A DNA stretch of 9,613 nt. Origin: JALTID01 sp027004335 [NCBI: bacterium]. Its GTDB lineage: Bacteria > JALSQH01. The stretch spans positions 1 through 9,613 of the forward strand of contig JALTID010000141.1 of NCBI GenBank assembly GCA_027004335.1, in the 5' to 3' direction. The notes under the pieces are model-generated. The model did not search any database, had not been told where the DNA came from, and saw nothing but the letters and a program-made list of their open reading frames with translations. Positions 437-7,806 of the stretch are shown here, one piece after another; the stretch's first letter is position 1, and each line of letters starts with the position of its first letter. Both the position numbers and the translations under genes were made by a program.

Positions 437-982
437 ATGATAGAGATCAGGTTTCACGGAAGAGGCGGTCAAGGTGCTGTTACATCTGCTGAGATACTTG
501 CTCAGGCAGCAATAGAGGAAGGTGAATATGCCACAGCTTTTCCCTCCTTTGGGTCCGAGCGAAGAGGCGCGCCTGTTTTAGCTTTTACCCGCATTGATAA
601 AGAACAGATCAAATTGAGAACAGGTATCTATCAGCCAGATATTGTGGTTGTTCTTGACCCTACATTGATAGAAAGTCATAATGTTGCAGAAGGTCTTAAG
701 AAAAATGGCCTTGTTGTGATCAATACAAAGAAACCTCCTGAATTCTGGAAGGAAGAGATTGGGGTCAACAGAGTATGTACGGTAAAAGCTACAGTTATTG
801 CTATGCAGGAACTTGGAGTCCCCATAACAAATATTATTATGCTGGGTGCGCTTCTCAAAGCTGAACCCTTGGTGAGGCCTGAGATGATTGAGAAGAGGAT
901 AAGAGAGAGATTTCCCCATATAGCTGAGAAAGAGGTTAGAGCCTTTGACAGAGCAATTAATGAAAGCAGGGTAATACAATGA
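437..982 (+). CDS. porG: Pyruvate (2-oxoacid):ferredoxin oxidoreductase, gamma subunit
   Basis: Gamma subunit of the four-subunit, CoA-dependent enzyme that oxidises pyruvate to acetyl-CoA and CO2 and reduces ferredoxin in the cytoplasm of anaerobes. The 181 residues cover the whole gamma domain. The N-terminus is typical ([20 protein letters not shown]), with the GRGGQG glycine-rich loop at residues 8-13 and the family's FGSERRGAP segment at 38-46. This domain helps hold CoA and TPP in the assembled enzyme. The ATG at 437 is chosen because it begins exactly at the family's conserved start; the site in front of it is weak (only AGAG, inside a GGAAC/GTTCC palindrome), so initiation may be modest. 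First gene of the operon; its stop overlaps porD by four bases (ATGA). The substrate could be another 2-oxoacid, but the gamma-delta-alpha-beta order and subunit sizes favour pyruvate. Confidence 0.93.
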
Positions 983-1272
983 AACTATCGGAAAAGCCCA
1001 AATGGCAGGAACTTCCCCTCGCTGCAAGTATAGTTGAACCTGCAACAAGTCTTGAGTACAAAACAGGGGATTGGAAGACCTTAAAGCCAGTTGTTGACAC
1101 CACCAAGTGTATAAGATGTGCGACCTGCTATATTTTCTGTCCCGAAGCAGCTTATGAGGAAAATGAAGAGGGATACTTTCTTCCCAATTATGATTACTGT
1201 AAGGGTTGTGGAATTTGTGCAGTTGAATGTCCTGCCATGTGTATTCAAATGGTGGAGGAAGAGGCTGAGTAA
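979..1272 (+). CDS. porD: Pyruvate:ferredoxin oxidoreductase, delta subunit (2x[4Fe-4S] ferredoxin)
   Basis: The 97-residue delta subunit carries electrons from the TPP site of PorB to the external acceptor. It holds two complete [4Fe-4S] motifs: Cys44-x2-Cys47-x2-Cys50-x3-Cys54-Pro and Cys74-x2-Cys77-x2-Cys80-x3-Cys84-Pro. The roughly 40-residue N-terminal extension (with LPLAASIVEPATSLEYKTGDW at about 12-32) is the arm that docks delta onto the other subunits in this family. The ATG overlaps the porG stop as ATGA, and the TAA stop shares one base with the porA ATG (TAATG). Both ligand sets are intact, so this subunit should be fully functional. In this operon it is the natural exit point to the NADH module encoded downstream. 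Confidence 0.93.
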   Translation: MKLSEKPKWQELPLAASIVEPATSLEYKTGDWKTLKPVVDTTKCIRCATCYIFCPEAAYEENEEGYFLPNYDYCKGCGICAVECPAMCIQMVEEEAE

Positions 1273-2450
1273 TGGCACATAGAACAGGAATTGAGGTAAG
1301 TCTTGCGATAGCAGAAGCTGCCAGGCAGGCAGAAGTAGAGGTGATTTCTGCTTATCCAATTACCCCCCAGACTCATATAGTTGAAAGGCTTGCTAAGATG
1401 GTAGCTGATGGTGACCTTGAAGCTGATTTTATTACAGTTGAATCAGAACATACCGCCATGAGTGCAGCAGTTGGTGCATCTTTAGCGGGAGCAAGGGCAT
1501 TTACTGCTACATCGTCTCAAGGTCTGGCTCTAATGGACGAAATAGTCTACCTTGCTTCCAGTCTGAGAACTCCAGTGGTTATGGCACTTGCTAACAGAAG
1601 TCTTTCCGGACCTATTTCCATATGGAACGATCATTCAGATATTATGAATGTAAGAGATGCAGGCTGGATTTCTATTTTTGCCAATAATGGGCAGGAGGCG
1701 TATGATTTAACTCTCATGGCATATAAAATAGCTGAAGATCATAGGGTGTTGCTCCCCGTCATGATTTCATTTGATGGATTTATTCTAACTCATATGATTG
1801 AGCCAGTTTGTGTTTTTGATGATGAGGAAATTAAAGGTTATCTCCCACCTTTTAATCCTCCTTATAAGGCTGACCCTGAACATCCAGTTACATTTGGCCC
1901 GGTAGGGGTTCCAGATATTTACACTGAAGCAAAGAAACAGCAAGACTTTGCCATAAGGAGTTCTATCAGCGTAATAAAAGAAGTGTTTGCAGATTTTGAG
2001 AAAGAGTTTGGAAGGAAATACAAACCTGTAGAATCCTATATGGCTGAAGATGCAGATGTGATATTACTTTCTCAGGGATCAGTTTATGAAACAACTGAGA
2101 TAGCGGTTGATAGGTTGAGAAAAGAAGGTAAAAAGGTTGGGTCTGCTGAGGTTAGACTCTGGCGTCCCTTCCCATTTGAGGACCTGAGAAAAGCAGTTGC
2201 CAATGCGAAAGTCGTTGTGGTGCTTGATAGAGCTATATCTTTTGGTGGACAGCCTGGCCCGCTTTTAGGAGAAATTAGAAGTGCTTTGTATCCATTGGAG
2301 AAAAAACCTGGAGTGATCGGGGTGACAGCCGGGCTTGGAGGAAGGGATATAATGATTCAGGATTATGAAAAGATGTTTGAATATGGGTACAATTACCTTA
2401 AAACAGGTAAGGAACCTGAAGCAGTAACAATTGTGGGGTTAAGAGAATGA
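1272..2450 (+). CDS. porA: Pyruvate:ferredoxin oxidoreductase, alpha subunit
   Basis: Alpha subunit, 392 residues, the usual length for the separate PorA/VorA chains. It carries the pyrimidine-binding TPP domain and the transketolase C-terminal-like domain. YPITPQT (28-34) includes the threonine/proline loop that contacts substrate. VESEHTAMSAAVGAS (56-70) contains the glutamate region that activates TPP. The ATSSQGLALMDE segment (79-90) and the NRSLSGPISIWNDHSD segment (108-123) are typical of the family. The C-terminal half (from about 260, DADVILLSQGSVYETTEIA) is the domain II fold. GAGG seven bases before the ATG (1261-1264) is a good ribosome site. It overlaps porD by one base and porB by four. 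Close paralogues use 2-oxoisovalerate or 2-oxoglutarate, so the substrate is inferred from the gene order rather than proved. Confidence 0.92.
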   Translation: MAHRTGIEVSLAIAEAARQAEVEVISAYPITPQTHIVERLAKMVADGDLEADFITVESEHTAMSAAVGASLAGARAFTATSSQGLALMDEIVYLASSLRTPVVMALANRSLSGPISIWNDHSDIMNVRDAGWISIFANNGQEAYDLTLMAYKIAEDHRVLLPVMISFDGFILTHMIEPVCVFDDEEIKGYLPPFNPPYKADPEHPVTFGPVGVPDIYTEAKKQQDFAIRSSISVIKEVFADFEKEFGRKYKPVESYMAEDADVILLSQGSVYETTEIAVDRLRKEGKKVGSAEVRLWRPFPFEDLRKAVANAKVVVVLDRAISFGGQPGPLLGEIRSALYPLEKKPGVIGVTAGLGGRDIMIQDYEKMFEYGYNYLKTGKEPEAVTIVGLRE

Positions 2451-3412
2451 TAAAGACTACAAGACCCAGAGAAGGCTTCCTTAATATCTTTGCCTATCAA
2501 ACTGTGACAAGAGAAGAATACTTTGTTAGAGGTCACAGAGCGTGTCAGGGTTGTGGTGCCGCTCTGGGATTAAGATTAATTATGAAGGAAGCAGGTCCAA
2601 ATACTATCGTGGTTAATGCTACAGGGTGCATGGAAATAATAAGTTCTCCCTACCCTTACACATCATGGGCTGTACCATGGATCCATGTTGCTTTTGAAAA
2701 TGCTGCCGCAGTTGCCAGTGGTGTTGAATCTGCGATTAAGATTTTGAGAAAAAAGGGGAAAATACCGGAAGATAAAGAAATAAATATCATTGTGTTTGGT
2801 GGTGATGGTGGTACAGCGGATATAGGAATTCAGGCATTATCAGGTGCATTGATAAGAGGTCATAAATTTCTCTATGTTTGTTACGATAATGAAGCATATA
2901 TGAATACAGGGGTTCAGGGTTCTTCTGCAACTCCCTATGGTGCATCAACTACCACCACTCCAGCAGGGAAGATGAGCATTGGGCAGGGATACTGGAAAAA
3001 GAATTTAGTGGAAATAACTGCTGCTCACAGGATTCCCTATGTGGCAACTGCATGTCCGAGCTATCCTCTTGATCTTATGAAAAAAGTAAGAAAAGCCCTT
3101 GATGCTGATGGACCTTCTTTTATTCACATGTTTTCAGTTTGTCCGACGGGGTGGGGAACTCCTCCTGAGCTTACCATAAGAATAGGAAGGCTTGCAGCGG
3201 AGACAGGAATGTTCCCACTTTATGAAATAGATCACGGAAAATATAAGTTGACACTGGACCTACCCAATGGGCTTAGACCCATTGAGGATTTTCTTAAAGT
3301 TCAGAAGCGCTTCAGGCACTTAACGAAGGAAGATATTGAAGTAATCCGTAATCGTGTTCAGGAGGAGTATGATAGATTGAAAAAAATGGAAAGATTTACT
3401 CAGGAAGAATGA
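2447..3412 (+). CDS. porB: Pyruvate:ferredoxin oxidoreductase, beta subunit (TPP-binding)
   Basis: The 321-residue catalytic beta subunit binds TPP-Mg2+ and the proximal [4Fe-4S] cluster. Candidate cluster ligands are Cys33 and Cys36 (GHRACQGCGAAL), Cys61 (NATGCMEI) and Cys232 (SVCPTGW). The TPP/Mg motif is GDGG at 119-122, followed by YDNEAYMNTGVQ at 146-157 with the conserved Asn148 and the NTG metal/pyrophosphate contact. The PYTSW segment (70-74) and TPYGASTTTTPAGK (162-175) are characteristic. The family's usual length is 310-330, so the chain is complete. The ATG overlaps the porA stop (ATGA). Together with porG, porD and porA it gives a full heterotetramer with all expected cofactor sites, so the POR half looks catalytically normal; what is unusual is what follows it. 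Confidence 0.93.
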   Translation: MIKTTRPREGFLNIFAYQTVTREEYFVRGHRACQGCGAALGLRLIMKEAGPNTIVVNATGCMEIISSPYPYTSWAVPWIHVAFENAAAVASGVESAIKILRKKGKIPEDKEINIIVFGGDGGTADIGIQALSGALIRGHKFLYVCYDNEAYMNTGVQGSSATPYGASTTTTPAGKMSIGQGYWKKNLVEITAAHRIPYVATACPSYPLDLMKKVRKALDADGPSFIHMFSVCPTGWGTPPELTIRIGRLAAETGMFPLYEIDHGKYKLTLDLPNGLRPIEDFLKVQKRFRHLTKEDIEVIRNRVQEEYDRLKKMERFTQEE

Positions 3413-3414
3413 AA

Positions 3415-3903
3415 ATGCCTCAGCTTCCAGTTGAACCTGCAAAAGCAGTTTCTGAAATTTTAAGTCGGTATCACGGTGATCCTGCGAGGATGATAGAAAT
3501 TCTCCAGGACCTTCAGGAAATCTATAGGTATTTACCGAAAGAGGTCATTGAAGAAGTTTCTCATCAGACAGAGATCCCGATAAACAGGATTTATCATATT
3601 GCAACATTTTATAAAGCCTTTCATCTTGAACCGAGAGGTGAAACTATAATAACAGTATGCACAGGAACTGCCTGTCATGTGAGAGGTTCTTTCAGAACCC
3701 TGGATCTGCTTTCCGAACGTCTTGGCGTTAAACCTAATGAGACAAGTGGTGATTTGAAATATACTCTTGAAACAGTAGGTTGTGTAGGCGCATGTGCGCT
3801 TGGCCCTATAGTGATCATAAATGGGAAATACTATGGACATATGACTCCAGATAGGATGGACAGGGTACTTAAAAGGATGGGAATAATTGAGAAGTATTCG
3901 TAA
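3415..3903 (+). CDS. NADH dehydrogenase/bifurcating enzyme [2Fe-2S] subunit, NuoE/HydC-like
   Basis: A 162-residue thioredoxin-like [2Fe-2S] protein, equivalent to NuoE of complex I and HydC of bifurcating hydrogenases. A helical N-terminal domain with the IL-x2-LQEIYRYLP segment (29-41) and INRIYHIATFYKAF (56-69) precedes the cluster domain. The four ligands are present: Cys82-x4-Cys87 (VCTGTACH) and Cys123-x3-Cys127 (TVGCVGACALGP). The cluster sits near the FMN of the NuoF/HydB partner and takes part in electron traffic. Two starts are possible. ATG 3409 overlaps the porB stop (ATGA) but lies only two to three bases from AGGAA (3402-3406). ATG 3415, two bases after the porB stop, is eight bases away and is preferred. 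The end overlaps the next gene by 17 bases. I give no symbol because nuoE and hydC are both used for this family. Confidence 0.9.
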   Translation: MPQLPVEPAKAVSEILSRYHGDPARMIEILQDLQEIYRYLPKEVIEEVSHQTEIPINRIYHIATFYKAFHLEPRGETIITVCTGTACHVRGSFRTLDLLSERLGVKPNETSGDLKYTLETVGCVGACALGPIVIINGKYYGHMTPDRMDRVLKRMGIIEKYS

Positions 3904-5755
3904 AAAAGAAGATCTCCTGAATTTATATGAAAATTTGCGGAAGGAGAGAGAGAAGCAAGGAAAGTTTATCTCTGTTTGTGTAGATACAGGATGTCTGGCC
4001 ACTGGTTCTGGAGCGGTTTTTTCTGCTCTCAAAGAGGAAATTGCAAAAGCGGGACTGAACCCTGAGGGGGAGGGAGTCAAAAAAATACTCAGGGGAACAG
4101 GCTCATTAGGTTTTGATAGTGAGAATCCAGTTGTTGTAATTTACCCTGAAAAAATATTTTATAGAAAAGTTAGGCCTGGAGACGCGAAATATATTGTACA
4201 TAAGACTCTTTTAAACGGTGAGATTATTGAGAGGCTTCTATATAAGGATCCTGAAACAAATGAACCAATTCCTTATCTGGATGATATCCCGTTTTATAAG
4301 CATCAGAAGCGTCTTCTGCTGGCAAATCATGGAATAATTGATCCTTTAAGCATTGAAGAATATATTTCAATAGGGGGATACCAGGCGCTTCTCAAAGCTC
4401 TTACGGAAATGGAACCACCCCAAATAGTGGAAGAGGTAAAAAAGTCAAAGTTGAGAGGGAGAGGAGGCGCAGGTTTTCCAACCGGAATCAAGTGGGAAGA
4501 TGCGGCTAAGAGGGATTCAGACATAAAGTATGTTATATGTAACGCTGATGAAGGTGATCCTGGTGCTTATATGGATAGGTCTTTGTTAGAGGGGGATCCG
4601 CATAGCGTAGTTGAAGGGATGATTATCGGTGCCTATGCAGTAGGTGCAAGCCACGGATATATTTATGTAAGAAGAGAATATCCAAAAGCTCTGGAAAGCG
4701 CTACAAAGGCAATAGAAGATGCACGGGAAGCAGGATTGCTGGGGGATAATATTCTGGGAACGGGTTTTTCTTTTGATATAGAAATAGCAAGGGGAGGAGG
4801 AGCTTTTGTTGCTGGAGAATCAACGGCTCTGATGGCTTCAATTGAGGGGAAGCCTGCTGAACCTCACACCAAATATATCCATGCTACGCAGGCTGGACTT
4901 TACAGTAAGCCTACAGTTTTAAATAATGTGGAGACATGGGCAAATGTTCCAATTATTATAAATAAAGGAGCTGACTGGTATGGAAATATAGGGACCGAGA
5001 AAAGCAAAGGAACCAAGATATTTTCCCTTGTTGGTGCTGTAAAGAACTCCGGGCTTGTAGAAGTTCCCATAGGAACAACTCTGAGGGAGGTAATCTTCGA
5101 TATCGGTGGTGGTATCGCCAGCGAGAAAAAGTTTAAGGCGGTACAAACAGGTGGACCATCGGGGGGGGTTCTCCCTGAATCTCTTCTGGACATGCCTATT
5201 GATTTTGATACATTAACGAAGGCTGGTTCAATGATGGGCTCAGGTGGTATGATTATCATGGATGAGCATACATGTATGGTGGATGTAGCTCGCTATTATA
5301 TTGATTTTCTTTCCAAAGAATCCTGTGGAAAATGTACCCCGTGCAGGGAAGGGCTCAGGCAGATGTTAGATATTCTCACCAGGATTACTCAGGGGGAGGC
5401 AACAATGGATGATCTTGACCTCCTTGAGGAACTTTCATATGTTGTTAAAGATGCGAGTTTATGTGGACTGGGTCAGACTGCTCCCAATCCAGTTCTTTCT
5501 ACTCTTAAATATTTTAGGGATGAATATGTAGCTCATGTAAGAGATAAACATTGCCCTGCCGGTGTCTGTGCTGCATTGATAGAATATGAGATCATTCCAG
5601 AAAAATGCACTGGTTGTCTTGCATGTAAGGTAAGATGTCCAGTGGGTGCAATTGAAGGGGAAAAAGGAGAAGTTCACAAAATAGATCCAGATAAGTGCAT
5701 AAGGTGTGGAATCTGCATGGAAGTGTGTACATTTGATGCAGTGAGGATAAAGTGA
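3887..5755 (+). CDS. NADH-binding FMN/Fe-S subunit, NuoF/HydB-like, with C-terminal 2x[4Fe-4S] domain
   Basis: A 622-residue flavoprotein that exchanges electrons with NAD(H). Domains in order: thioredoxin-like N-terminal domain (about 25-118); FMN/NADH domain with RGRGGAGFPTG (190-200) and NADEGDPGAYMDR (219-231); SLBB domain (about 375-450); a [4Fe-4S] site with Cys480, Cys483, Cys486 (ESCGKCTPCREG) and Cys526; a KHCPAGVC segment (554-561); and two ferredoxin motifs (Cys574/577/580/584 and Cys604/607/610/614). This is the HydB layout rather than short complex I NuoF. Oddities: the N-terminal domain keeps Cys31 and Cys36 but has Ser73 and Asp77 where the second cluster pair is expected, and the usual CGEETAL is AGESTAL (309-315). 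The start is TTG 3887, with AGGATGG about seven to ten bases upstream; no in-frame ATG or GTG precedes the first conserved residues. It overlaps the previous gene by 17 bases. The substrate could in principle be NADP(H). Confidence 0.9.
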   Translation: MRSIRKKEDLLNLYENLRKEREKQGKFISVCVDTGCLATGSGAVFSALKEEIAKAGLNPEGEGVKKILRGTGSLGFDSENPVVVIYPEKIFYRKVRPGDAKYIVHKTLLNGEIIERLLYKDPETNEPIPYLDDIPFYKHQKRLLLANHGIIDPLSIEEYISIGGYQALLKALTEMEPPQIVEEVKKSKLRGRGGAGFPTGIKWEDAAKRDSDIKYVICNADEGDPGAYMDRSLLEGDPHSVVEGMIIGAYAVGASHGYIYVRREYPKALESATKAIEDAREAGLLGDNILGTGFSFDIEIARGGGAFVAGESTALMASIEGKPAEPHTKYIHATQAGLYSKPTVLNNVETWANVPIIINKGADWYGNIGTEKSKGTKIFSLVGAVKNSGLVEVPIGTTLREVIFDIGGGIASEKKFKAVQTGGPSGGVLPESLLDMPIDFDTLTKAGSMMGSGGMIIMDEHTCMVDVARYYIDFLSKESCGKCTPCREGLRQMLDILTRITQGEATMDDLDLLEELSYVVKDASLCGLGQTAPNPVLSTLKYFRDEYVAHVRDKHCPAGVCAALIEYEIIPEKCTGCLACKVRCPVGAIEGEKGEVHKIDPDKCIRCGICMEVCTFDAVRIK

Positions 5756-6486
5756 TGGTTAAGATAACCATTGATGGGAAAAAAATTTCTGCGAAAGAAG
5801 GCGAGACTGTCTTAAAAGCTGCACAAAGAGCAGGAATTTTTATTCCTACTCTATGTAACAATGATGCAGTTAAACCCTATAGCGCATGCAGGATGTGTCT
5901 GGTTGAAGTTGCTAAAAATGGCAGAACCAAGCTCGTAACTTCCTGTGATTATCCCGTGGAGGAAGGAATTGAGGTAAATACAAATACGGAGCGGATCCAG
6001 AGAGACAGGAAGGTGATTCTGGAACTTTTAATTGCAAGAACAGGCGAAACACCTGAATTAAAAAAGCTTGCTGAAAAAGTAGGGGTTAAAGAGGTAAGAT
6101 TTAAAGTAAGAAACTTTGATGACTGCATACTTTGCGGACTTTGTGTTAGAGTATGTGACGAAGTGGTTGGGGCTCATGCTATTGGTTTCAGGGGAAGGGG
6201 CATGGAGCGAGAAGTAGTGCCACCTTTTGATGTAGAAAATGAGCAATGTCTTGCATGTGGTGCATGTGCGGAAATATGTCCAGTAAATATCATAGATATT
6301 TTTGAACACGACGGGACAAGAGAACTTCCAAAATGGCATAAAAAGTCCAGGCTTGTGGCATGCAGGGTTTGTGGGAAATACTTTGCTACTGAAGAAGAAA
6401 TTGAAATGATCAGGGCAAAGACTGGCTTACCCGACGAGATACTATATGTCTGCCCTGATTGTAGGGAACATAATTTTACTATTTAG
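5755..6486 (+). CDS. Short NuoG/HydA N-terminus-like ferredoxin subunit with C-terminal CxxC pair
   Basis: A 243-residue electron-transfer subunit matching only the N-terminal ferredoxin part of NuoG, HoxU or HydA. Residues 1-80 are a plant-type [2Fe-2S] domain with Cys34, Cys45, Cys48 and Cys64. The following stretch (81-112) keeps the helical framework but lacks the His-Cys ligands of the usual extra [4Fe-4S] site. Residues 120-180 hold two [4Fe-4S] motifs: Cys124/127/130/134 and Cys165/168/171/175. The tail adds CRVCG (203-207) and CPDC (233-236), like a zinc ribbon or rubredoxin. No H-cluster or molybdopterin domain follows. ATG 5755 is preferred (GAGGA seven bases upstream; TGATG overlap with the previous stop); GTG 5752 would add one residue but is only four bases from that site. 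Last gene of the operon. It probably bridges the flavoprotein and PorD or free ferredoxin; that role is inferred. Confidence 0.87.
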   Translation: MVKITIDGKKISAKEGETVLKAAQRAGIFIPTLCNNDAVKPYSACRMCLVEVAKNGRTKLVTSCDYPVEEGIEVNTNTERIQRDRKVILELLIARTGETPELKKLAEKVGVKEVRFKVRNFDDCILCGLCVRVCDEVVGAHAIGFRGRGMEREVVPPFDVENEQCLACGACAEICPVNIIDIFEHDGTRELPKWHKKSRLVACRVCGKYFATEEEIEMIRAKTGLPDEILYVCPDCREHNFTI

Positions 6487-6586: not shown

Positions 6587-6614
6587 TTGACAGCATGGAG
6601 TAATTTTGTAAAAT
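6587..6614 (+). promoter_or_regulatory. Strong promoter for the tRNA-Gly/tRNA-Cys unit
   Basis: A perfect -35 TTGACA (6587-6592) is followed after 16 bases by TAAAAT (6609-6614, 5/6). The start point would fall near 6621, about five bases before tRNA-Gly, as expected for a stable-RNA promoter with a very short leader. It also implies that the tRNAs do not depend on read-through from the por-hyd operon. Confidence 0.7.
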
Positions 6615-6625
6615 TATTAACGCAG

Positions 6626-6701
<76 letters not shown>

Positions 6702-6710
6702 TTTTTTTCT

Positions 6711-6784
6711 GGCGGCGTACCCAAGAGGCCTAAGGGGGCGGTCTGCAAAACCGCTATTCACCGGTTCGACTCCGGTCGCCGCCT
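6711..6784 (+). tRNA. tRNA-Cys (anticodon GCA), CCA not encoded
   Basis: The acceptor GGCGGCG (6711-6717) pairs with CGCCGCC (6777-6783). The anticodon stem GCGGT/ACCGC encloses loop CTGCAAA with GCA at 6745-6747. The T arm is ACCGG-TTCGACT-CCGGT. Discriminator T6784 agrees with the U73 required by cysteinyl-tRNA synthetase. The next bases are CTA, so CCA must be added by nucleotidyltransferase, unlike the neighbouring tRNA-Gly. The last 31 bases are overlapped on the other strand by the end of the hydrolase gene. Confidence 0.96.
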
Positions 6785-7806
6785 CTATTAAATAAGTGCT
6801 TTTTAAGCCATTTTTCAATTACTGGGAGAGTTTCCTCTGTTGCGTCAACTCCCACTACAAGGTCTATGTGACCATAGTCATGTTTGAATCCCTCGGGTTT
6901 TCCCATGACCACTAAAAACTTATCTCTGGAAGAGATATATTTGTAACTCAGCCTGATCCCCTCTGCCGGCGCCATTTTATCAACATCCCCGGCTATTAAA
7001 AGTACTGGATATTTAAGATCCTTAAGGGATGTAAGATAATTGATGTTATATTCATCTATTAGGGGTCCTTTTTCAATAGCATCTTTAAGCTGATCTACCA
7101 TTTTAATAGGGGTGGTTGGGCTTACCGCTCTTGTTATCATTATGGATACATCAGAGGGGGATATGTCATTTACATTTCCAAGTAACTTCAACAGTGAGAT
7201 TTTTTTGAGAAAGTAAGGAGAGAAAGGTTTTACTATGTAATTCCCCGGAAACGACCATGCATAGGGAGTAACAAATTTAAATTTATCCAGTAGGTTAATC
7301 AGGGGGATATAAATTTTCCTCTGCCATGCAGAGAATGTTACAGGAGCTGCAATAGCTATTATCCCAATAAGGTGAGTGTCAAATACATGGGAACCATAAG
7401 CTAAATCGGTGATTCCACCCAGGCTGTGACCCATAATAAAATATTTTTTGACACCTCTTTTTTTCACGCTTTTGATAAGGGCTTTTAAATCATATCTCCA
7501 TAACCTCCCTATTGTTATAATCCTGGGAGAGTTACAGTGTGATGCACCATGCCCCCGAAAGTCTATAGCGAAACCTTTGAACCCCTTTTTTGAGAGGATT
7601 CTCGCGAAGGATTTAGAGGGTACAGCGTCAAAGTTGTTATGATTTGCACCAAGTCCATGGAGATATATTATGGCGGGCAGAGTGCTGCTTCCAGGATAGG
7701 TGAATACTGGTAATTTGCATCCATCTGTGGTCCTTATCCAGTAGGATGGGATATCATGGCTGGAGCAGGAAAAGATGAAAGTAATGAGTATCAGTAGAAA
7801 GAGCAA
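6754..7806 (-). CDS. Alpha/beta-hydrolase, putative lipoprotein
   Basis: A 350-residue serine hydrolase of unknown substrate, related to lipases, esterases and acyl-hydrolases. HGLG (50-53) forms the oxyanion region and DFRGHG follows at 82-87. The nucleophile elbow is GHSLG with Ser128 (126-130). The acid is probably Asp276 in AGDVDKMAP (272-280) and the base His313 in YGHIDLV (311-317); a lid-like insertion lies at about 160-250. The N-terminus is a short hydrophobic stretch ending IFSC (11-14), a plausible lipobox with Cys14 as lipid-attachment site, so the enzyme is probably exported and membrane-anchored. The canonical start is TTG 7806, but this leaves no positively charged n-region; ATA 7824 would supply IRKLKK. 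The last ten or so residues (RGGDRSRTGE) are encoded antisense to tRNA-Cys and are unlikely to be part of the ancestral fold. It is the third gene after the PHP gene and thrC. Confidence 0.85.
   Translation of the reverse strand: MLFLLILITFIFSCSSHDIPSYWIRTTDGCKLPVFTYPGSSTLPAIIYLHGLGANHNNFDAVPSKSFARILSKKGFKGFAIDFRGHGASHCNSPRIITIGRLWRYDLKALIKSVKKRGVKKYFIMGHSLGGITDLAYGSHVFDTHLIGIIAIAAPVTFSAWQRKIYIPLINLLDKFKFVTPYAWSFPGNYIVKPFSPYFLKKISLLKLLGNVNDISPSDVSIMITRAVSPTTPIKMVDQLKDAIEKGPLIDEYNINYLTSLKDLKYPVLLIAGDVDKMAPAEGIRLSYKYISSRDKFLVVMGKPEGFKHDYGHIDLVVGVDATEETLPVIEKWLKKHLFNRGGDRSRTGE

Follow-up and report, generated by a model that had tools for sequence, protein, structure and literature searches.

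The window, that is, the whole stretch of 9,613 nucleotides that was analysed, carries on its forward strand at positions 437–6486 seven genes arranged head to tail in the order PorG-PorD-PorA-PorB-NuoE-NuoF-NuoG(N). Subunits were identified from Pfam and NCBIfam profile matches, which bear out the first-pass annotation of the cluster as PorGDAB followed by NuoE-, NuoF- and NuoG-N-terminus-like subunits. The first four genes encode a pyruvate oxidoreductase (POR): the gamma subunit PorG (437–982; PF01558, 4e-42; TIGR02175, 217.9 bits, cut-off 81.1), the delta subunit PorD with two [4Fe-4S] clusters (979–1272; TIGR02179, 99.8 bits, cut-off 60; Fer4), the alpha subunit PorA (1272–2450; PF01855, 1e-74, and PF17147, POR_N/PFOR_II; PorA_Arch, 496 bits, below the cut-off of 550) and the beta subunit PorB with the TPP site (2447–3412; TPP_enzyme_C; PRK11865, 420.8 bits, cut-off 405). 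The remaining genes encode BfuC, which is NuoE/HydC-like and holds the C1 [2Fe-2S] cluster (3409–3903; PF01257, 2Fe-2S_thioredx, 1e-48), BfuB, which is NuoF/HydB-like with an FMN and NAD(H) domain (3887–5755; Complex1_51K, SLBB, NADH_4Fe-4S and Fer4 in Pfam), and BfuA, which resembles the N-terminus of NuoG/HydA (5752–6486; PF13510, Fer2_4, and Fer4). PorB passes the pyruvate model, and PorA, PorG and PorD score best with pyruvate models at values just below the equivalog cut-offs; pyruvate is thus the predicted rather than the proven substrate.

The genes overlap at each of the six junctions, by 4, 1, 4, 4, 17 and 4 bases, so that of the tight packing described earlier the overlaps of 1, 4 and 17 bases stand and the gaps do not. 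Five genes start with ATG, BfuB with TTG and BfuA with GTG. Scans for promoters and terminators did not resolve the operon promoter; an 11/12 match at 6587 precedes tRNA-Gly(GCC) and tRNA-Cys(GCA) (6626–6785, forward strand), conserved neighbours at the operon edge. The operon adjoins these tRNA genes, and the sole other family member compared has different genes at that place. A chimeric or misbinned contig was considered and rejected, since the neighbouring thrC, hydrolase and tRNA genes match the same family member in the same order. The host assembly comprises 1.50 Mb in 262 contigs and is 80.2% complete; its phylum is represented by two genomes among those searched. On viral contigs, 15 pattern matches were obtained, none of them a relative.

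As previously observed, the open reading frames of the window include no hydrogenase, formate dehydrogenase or other complex I gene, and POR stands in their place. An orphan complex I module was rejected, there being no other Nuo subunit in the window and only one NuoF in the assembly: PF01512 has a single match there, the BfuB gene itself. A hydrogenase partner elsewhere in the genome was also rejected: PF02906, PF00374 and PF03598 (covering [FeFe] and [NiFe] hydrogenase and acetyl-CoA synthase) have no match in the host assembly (80.2% complete), and the BfuA gene lacks the H-cluster domain of HydA (Pfam). Because the assembly is only 80% complete, the missing hydrogenase counts as weak evidence.

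The ligands of PorD, BfuA, BfuC and of B1–B4 in BfuB are conserved across Por-Bfu relatives, and those of B1–B4 and C1 are intact in the window. PorD keeps its eight ligand cysteines in 32/32 Por-Bfu sequences and BfuC its C1 ligands (C84, C89, C125, C129) in 33/33. In BfuB the ligands are C480, C483, C486 and C526 for B1, C463, T501, the diagnostic H550, C556 and C561 for B2 (aligning one to one with C438, C476, H525, C531 and C536 of 7t2r), and C574, C577, C580, C584, C604, C607, C610 and C614 for B3/B4. Counts for BfuB exclude sequences shorter than 450 aa (L062, L073, L082 and L085, cut by contig ends); L146, without its N-terminus, was left out of the B5 count, and L048, cut before H550, was counted for B5 and not for later ligands (27/28). 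The BfuA gene, of 244 codons, encodes A1 [2Fe-2S], two [4Fe-4S] clusters (A2 and A4) and a C-terminal CxxC..CxxC ribbon; on reading the sequence, three cysteine groups and no HxxxCxxC are found in only 244 aa, so that the His-ligated A3 and A5 are absent, as in Type 2 BfuA. On the operational Bfu domain list (InterPro), which we take to correspond to the Pfam families used here, BfuB and BfuC show the expected domains (PF01512; PF10531, 28.1 bits, cut-off 27; PF10589; Fer4; PF01257), as does BfuA (2Fe-2S and 4Fe-4S domains: PF13510 and Fer4 families).

The best Foldseek matches of the BfuB and BfuA models are solved electron-bifurcating enzymes. For BfuB the best is 9mqx_B of Wor-Bfu (TM 0.89), its best sequence match being 7t2r_B (794 bits); for BfuA it is 9mqx_A, the top PDB entry by sequence as well as by Foldseek (40% identical in 249 Foldseek columns, the C-terminal ribbon among them). 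The domain arrangement of BfuA is unsure because its model reaches a pTM of 0.53 and a TM of only 0.45 to 9mqx_A; in VIA-align, 7t2r_A (Z 15.0) and 9mqx_A (Z 14.6) are tied and mainly residues 1–126 are covered. The entry 9mqx is titled "Electron-bifurcating Tungstopyranopterin-containing aldehyde oxidoreductase with NADH"; unlike the window, it has a tungsten aldehyde oxidoreductase as partner and all four B5 cysteines in 9mqx_B. In the literature searched for PDB codes, 9BT4 is named in one paper and 9MQX in none. The BfuBC core is likewise shared with NiFe-HydABCSL (7t2r) and FeFe-HydABC (8a6t, 7p5h), which differ in their hydrogenase partner and larger BfuA. Within the POR family, phenylglyoxylate:NAD+ oxidoreductase PadEFGHI is coupled to NAD+ through the GltD-like PadH; by contrast, none of the seven genes encodes a GltD-like (Pyr_redox) domain (Pfam), and the Pad equivalog models score far below their cut-offs.

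The view that the NADH module here lacks a known catalytic partner is not supported, since Schut et al. (2022; PMC9304861) already treat POR as a partner in the Bfu family and describe a seven-subunit Por-Bfu, a prediction without biochemistry, in Dehalococcoides mccartyi 195 and others. As in that system, four POR subunits and BfuABC with a Type 2 BfuA (A1, A2 and A4 only) lie in one cluster; what differs in the window is BfuB, in which two of the four B5 ligands are missing.

Synteny of the seven genes, proposed earlier as a check, was found: the contiguous order occurs in 27 loci, comprising the window, eight further genomes (L033, L035, L142–L145, L147 and L148) and 18 of the 80 named loci, and in all 27 the Bfu module lies directly 3' of PorB. 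The PorB and BfuC matches are spaced by -14 to 110 bases in the 18 named loci; L117 satisfies the seven-gene rule of the script (giving 19/80) but was left out, its Bfu genes being only distantly related and 2.5 kb away. Because other genomes repeat this order, the arrangement is more than chance. The regular separation in relatives that the first-pass annotation held would tell against a single complex is seen in part: among the 80 close POR loci, 38 show no Bfu gene over the visible 1.5–7 kb downstream. POR and Bfu are linked in seven of the nine genomes of the nearest relatives' class; the eighth is truncated by its contig, and the ninth, 73% complete, has no such operon. Por-adjacent sequences cluster on the BfuB tree (4 label changes vs 13.3 when shuffled; 0/500 shuffles as low), although a single clade of Por-linked BfuB is rejected (p-AU 0.0135); the PorA tree has 10 label changes vs 24.5. 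Both are quick trees with SH-aLRT only. Since close module-free POR relatives are also common (38/80), the coupling was gained or lost repeatedly. The first 110 residues were cut from long rows of the BfuB alignment, so B5 does not shape that tree.

The degenerate B5 [2Fe-2S] site belongs to the N-terminal, thioredoxin-like domain of BfuB (3977–4117, forward strand), where C31 and C36 are kept and Ser73 (TCA) and Asp77 (GAT) occupy positions that are cysteines in relatives. All four B5 cysteines are kept in 24/28 BfuB sequences; the window keeps two and L033, L147 and L148 one each. A sequencing error was rejected, as each codon would need at least two base changes to become a Cys codon and a loss at B5 is also present in three other genomes. 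A cluster coordinated by Ser or Asp may still form at B5. The ratio of N-terminal to core differences is 1.72–1.76 for the four B5-less proteins; the 253 intact pairs have a median of 1.57, and because single intact proteins reach 1.77 no clear relaxation of constraint on this domain emerges. According to the abstract of Schut et al. (PMC9304861) the six-cluster BfuBC core, B5 included, is the defining feature of the family, and the paper states that every Bfu enzyme conserves B5. As Ser and Asp replace two B5 cysteines and the core is thus short of six regular clusters, the protein is, judged by its residues, a variant and not a strict member. The solved Nfn-type enzymes (Sporomusa ovata Stn, 8oh5; Caldicellulosiruptor saccharolyticus NfnABC, 9bov; Thermococcus sibiricus NfnABC, 9n5u) are a partial precedent: their BfuBC-type core has a B5 motif departing from C-x4-C, with one Cys at a shifted place and the second pair kept. 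They differ from the window in the B5 ligands lost and in having an NADPH-oxidising BfuA/StnC instead of POR.

The TPP site of PorAB is where POR-family enzymes oxidise pyruvate and CoA. From gene content, conserved order, cluster ligands and descent we infer that the seven genes quite likely encode one pyruvate:NAD+/ferredoxin complex working like Por-Bfu and bifurcating without a normal B5 cluster. A single POR-diaphorase complex serving NAD+ and probably ferredoxin, as suggested at first, remains the best reading. By analogy with homologous structures, electrons from PorAB would pass through the two [4Fe-4S] clusters of PorD to A4, A2 and A1 of BfuA, then to B1 and the single FMN of BfuB. 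There they would be split, one pair reducing NAD+ and the second reaching ferredoxin through C1, B2, B3 and B4, for a predicted net reaction of 2 pyruvate + 2 CoA + NAD+ + Fd(ox) -> 2 acetyl-CoA + 2 CO2 + NADH + Fd(red). The direction would be mainly oxidative here, because the NADH and ferredoxin couples have a mean of about -390 mV and pyruvate lies at about -500 mV (Table 1, PMC9304861). No purified Por-Bfu was found in the open-licence PMC literature; similar expression of the Por-Bfu genes of D. mccartyi 195 is cited by Schut et al. (PMC9304861).

That the complex exists and does not bifurcate, acting as a plain pyruvate:NAD+ oxidoreductase or reducing NAD+ and ferredoxin independently, is unlikely. 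In its favour, the potential of pyruvate is low enough to reduce each acceptor by itself (Table 1, PMC9304861), B5 is degenerate in the window, B2–B5 are missing from non-bifurcating homologues in the account of Schut et al. (PMC9304861), and in three related loci a GltD-like FAD protein replaces BfuC and BfuB, suggesting that NAD(P)+ coupling can do without the bifurcating core in this clade. The window nevertheless keeps the ligands of B2 (with H550), B3, B4 and C1. A later paper ties the lost bifurcation of Syntrophomonas wolfei HydB to the loss of B3 and B4 (PMC11406978); the bifurcating Stn is described with B1–B4 only (PMC10482914), and Wor-Bfu, with an even lower-potential donor, reportedly did not reduce one acceptor without the other (PMC9304861). 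Less probable still is that one operon encodes two enzymes, a POR that reduces ferredoxin and a BfuABC that is a free NADH:ferredoxin module or is paired elsewhere. In this clade POR frequently stands without Bfu genes (38/80), the Bfu module has many partners and label changes in the PorA tree are frequent; against this, the genes overlap, the module follows PorB directly in all 27 loci, neither a hydrogenase of the [FeFe] or [NiFe] type nor acetyl-CoA synthase was found in the assembly (80% complete), and BfuA, which lacks a catalytic domain, needs a partner.

That the complex runs mainly in reverse, making pyruvate with electrons from NADH and ferredoxin, seems somewhat doubtful; this reading rivals the bifurcating complex in its direction alone. 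Schut et al. suggest it for organohalide-respiring and syntrophic bacteria from host lifestyle (PMC9304861), and the enzyme class is reversible; the lack of a detected acetyl-CoA synthase in the assembly (80% complete) speaks against it, and the reaction would run uphill at the NADH/ferredoxin mean potential unless acetyl-CoA and CO2 were high.

If the bifurcating complex is real, anaerobes with Por-Bfu would oxidise pyruvate with additional driving force and obtain NADH and ferredoxin in a 1:1 ratio. The POR and Bfu arrangement is already in print (PMC9304861, 2022); B5 is what is different here, and on B5 two papers are at odds, one describing a dead end or remnant (PMC8880783), the dead end being the view of Feng et al., and the other an electron store, together with C1, kept in all (Schut et al., PMC9304861). 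The consulted text of PMC5736913 and PMC9499530 holds nothing bearing on B5 of Por-Bfu. There is an even chance that B5 was lost at least twice within Por-Bfu while the FMN domain, B1–B4, C1 and the thioredoxin-like fold were kept, giving natural five-cluster BfuBC enzymes in which B5 would be dispensable for bifurcation, a dead end and not an electron store with C1, and its domain a scaffold for BfuC; the bifurcating Stn described without B5 and the altered motifs of Nfn-type BfuB make this more probable. With the ligands dropped twice in a subclade, the question of B5 would become testable with natural sister enzymes that have and lack the site.

The Por-Bfu operon of the window comprises seven genes on the + strand (437–6486), in an assembly of 1.50 Mb and 262 contigs that is 80.2% complete. 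By Pfam and NCBIfam the first four encode PorG, PorD, PorA and PorB, subunits of a pyruvate-type 2-oxoacid oxidoreductase, and are followed by a NuoE-like protein (BfuC), a NuoF-like protein with a thioredoxin-like N-terminal and a ferredoxin C-terminal domain (BfuB) and a short protein resembling the N-terminus of NuoG/HydA (BfuA). The gene order and identities given in the first-pass annotation were confirmed, whereas the gaps of up to 2 bases that it described are absent, all six junctions being overlaps (4, 1, 4, 4, 17, and 4 bases). The start of a divergent gene (1–147, - strand; 49 aa, without a Pfam match) is cut by the contig end.

This type of arrangement is already known. The Bfu family groups HydABC-like bifurcating enzymes with exchangeable partners, among which "Por-Bfu" was predicted as a seven-subunit enzyme from 12 sequences including that of D. 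mccartyi 195, whose genes show similar expression levels and are flanked by two tRNA genes; the enzyme was termed uncharacterised (Schut et al., 2022; PMC9304861). In the openly licensed PMC literature no report of a purified POR-BfuABC enzyme was found, though later work may exist elsewhere, and among the papers matched there only PMC9304861 uses the term Por-Bfu. The window operon is a further example, and what it adds to the record is a subclade that has lost the N-terminal [2Fe-2S] site of BfuB (B5).

A PorA-alignment scan of a named genome collection gave at least 588 pattern matches, of which 584 were confirmed and the best 80 kept. All seven genes occurred in 19 of these 80 loci (tblastn rule), and were contiguous in 18, since the Por and Bfu sets of L117 lie 2.5 kb apart; PorB-to-BfuC match spacing in the contiguous loci ranged from -14 to 110 bases. 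In six further loci of the 80 PorB is followed by BfuC or BfuC-BfuB before the contig ends (L048, L050, L062, L073, L082, and L085; L082, an Actinomycetota record, ends at BfuB), in three a single GltD-like protein precedes BfuA in place of BfuC and BfuB, in 14 the contig ends no more than about 1.2 kb from PorB (or PorA), and in 38 Bfu genes are absent from the 1.5–7 kb covered. The complete order was also present in genomes G022, G036, and G060 to G065. In the class of G022, which holds the nearest relatives of the window, seven of nine genomes have it; of the other two, G066 is interrupted by its contig end and G059, 73% complete, lacks the operon. By record label the linked lineages include Chloroflexota, Thermodesulfobacteriota, Myxococcota, SAR324, Spirochaetota, and Bacillota. 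On a quick PorA tree the linked state required 10 changes vs. 24.5 when shuffled, so the linkage is clustered yet was gained or lost several times. Por-adjacent BfuB required 4 changes vs. 13.3 when shuffled; its strict monophyly was rejected (p-AU 0.0135).

Several related loci combine these modules differently. The GltD-like protein of L051 (10111–12051), L084 (2850–4793), and L101 (10164–12062) is about 640 aa long and joins an NADH_4Fe-4S domain to an FAD, NAD(P) protein of the GltD/NfnB kind (Pfam for L051 and L101). The POR of these loci has the same BfuA adaptor and another NAD(P) module. In L038 (3526–9101; G008) a different 2-oxoacid oxidoreductase, whose alpha subunit is VorB-type (503 bits against a cut-off of 399), directly precedes BfuC-BfuB-BfuA, making this the second case of an oxoacid enzyme recruited as partner of the Bfu module. 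Bfu genes adjoin a Glu_synthase-domain protein of about 530 aa in L039 (2258–6436; G035), L040 (6313–11071; G007), and L041 (91–5117; G002), possibly a Bfu partner, one not noticed in the parts of PMC9304861 consulted. In L036 (3474–9887) a CCG-domain (heterodisulfide-reductase-like) gene is followed in turn by an FAD/Fer4-BfuC fusion, BfuB, and a BfuA of 589 aa that has additional ferredoxin domains. L034 and L037, with a CO dehydrogenase/prismane-family gene near BfuCBA, resemble the published Codh-Bfu. In L043 (10130–13159; Actinomycetota record) a close POR relative (PorA 58%) is followed by a 1010 aa protein with FAD and ferredoxin domains that looks HdrA-like, and the Bfu module is absent.

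Among Por-Bfu sequences the cluster ligands are kept in BfuC (C1, 33/33), PorD (32/32) and BfuA (A1, 28/28; its two [4Fe-4S] clusters, 27 or 28 of 28, with one X), and in BfuB those of B1, B3, and B4, and for B2 its Cys and His, are kept in 27 or 28 of 28, the single gap being a cut contig. The window BfuA lacks both the His-ligated A3 and A5, which places it in Type 2 of the published scheme; it shares a C-terminal CxxC..CxxC ribbon, whose Cys occur in 24 to 26 of 28 Por-Bfu sequences, with 9mqx_A of Wor-Bfu. Residues C463, T501, H550, C556, and C561 of BfuB, whose top sequence match is 7t2r_B (NiFe-HydABCSL), align to the 7t2r B2 ligands numbered C438, C476, H525, C531, and C536 (PMC9304861); Thr, described there as the common state at the second position, occurs in 20/28 Por-Bfu BfuB. 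The AlphaFold model of BfuB (mean pLDDT 81) resembles 9mqx_B, a subunit of the solved electron-bifurcating tungsten aldehyde oxidoreductase (TM 0.89), and that of BfuA (mean pLDDT 81, pTM only 0.53) has 9mqx_A as top Foldseek match (TM 0.45). The seven subunits probably form one complex, which would bifurcate electrons. From ligand conservation, the B2 alignment, models and structure matches we infer that electrons would pass from pyruvate through TPP, PorD, BfuA, and B1 to FMN, from where one branch would reduce NAD+ and the other would run through C1, B2, B3, and B4 to ferredoxin.

A phylum-level search returned only the window's genome and one more, and G001 was the only same-family relative available for comparison. 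G001 and the window share a CpsB-like - thrC - hydrolase - tRNA-Cys - tRNA-Gly block (thrC 64%, hydrolase 58%), and the tRNA-Gly/tRNA-Cys pair with an upstream promoter-like box (TTGACA..TAAAAT) is 88% identical in DNA (window 6587–6785; G001 L153 10224–10429), this region being the edge of the Por-Bfu operon. G001 has a ThiF-like gene at the place of the operon and a best PorA match of 39%. Identity to the class of G022 is 61–76% for BfuB and 67–73% for PorA, whereas for thrC it is only 41–44%. The ThiF-like gene and the identity contrast fit lateral acquisition beside tRNA genes, the probable origin of the operon; alternatively, G001 may have lost it.

The usual N-terminal BfuB motifs of the clade, C-x4-C and later C-x3-C, are complete in 24 of the 28 Por-Bfu sequences covering the B5 site. 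The window BfuB has the first pair (C31, C36), the second being replaced by Ser73 (TCA) and Asp77 (GAT); in G022, G060, and G062 the four ligand positions read G, S, D, C. On a quick tree built without the B5 domain, the window joins eight sequences of the class of G022 (99), and within that class (97) B5 is intact in G061, G063, G064, and G065, G066 being cut before the site. The fewest-changes reading, with which the differing residues agree, is that B5 would have been lost twice. The window may still hold a cluster with Ser or Asp ligands, which the pattern in G022 makes less likely; the domain still folds in the predicted structure and shows no clear sign of relaxed constraint. Feng et al. 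(2022; PMC8880783) regard B5 as a dead end that is probably vestigial, and state that in the apo state the C-terminal domain of HydC is held by the B5 domain. Schut et al. (2022) instead treat B5, with C1, as part of the electron store. In a study of Hydrogenedentota (PMC11406978) a BfuB subtype lacking the domains of B5 and of B3/B4 was treated as non-bifurcating; in contrast, the window BfuB retains B3/B4.

S. ovata Stn bifurcates, and its StnB was described with B1–B4 only, the N-terminal domain being docked and not refined (PMC10482914). In the PDB sequences of this enzyme and of the C. saccharolyticus and T. sibiricus NfnABC (8oh5_B, 9bov_B, and 9n5u_B) G-x2-SCG replaces C-x4-C, giving one Cys at a shifted place, and the second pair is present; BfuB of L037, L041, and L117 likewise has one shifted Cys instead of C-x4-C and keeps the second pair. 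With the window N-terminal domain as query, hydrogenase and Wor-type BfuB were matched at E < 1e-4, and those of Stn and both NfnABC were unmatched at E <= 10. Given the Stn description and these altered motifs, the statement that B5 is conserved in all Bfu enzymes (Schut et al., 2022) was already doubtful for the Nfn-type. The window adds an independent case, within Por-Bfu, in which two or three B5 ligands were lost and intact sister enzymes allow comparison.
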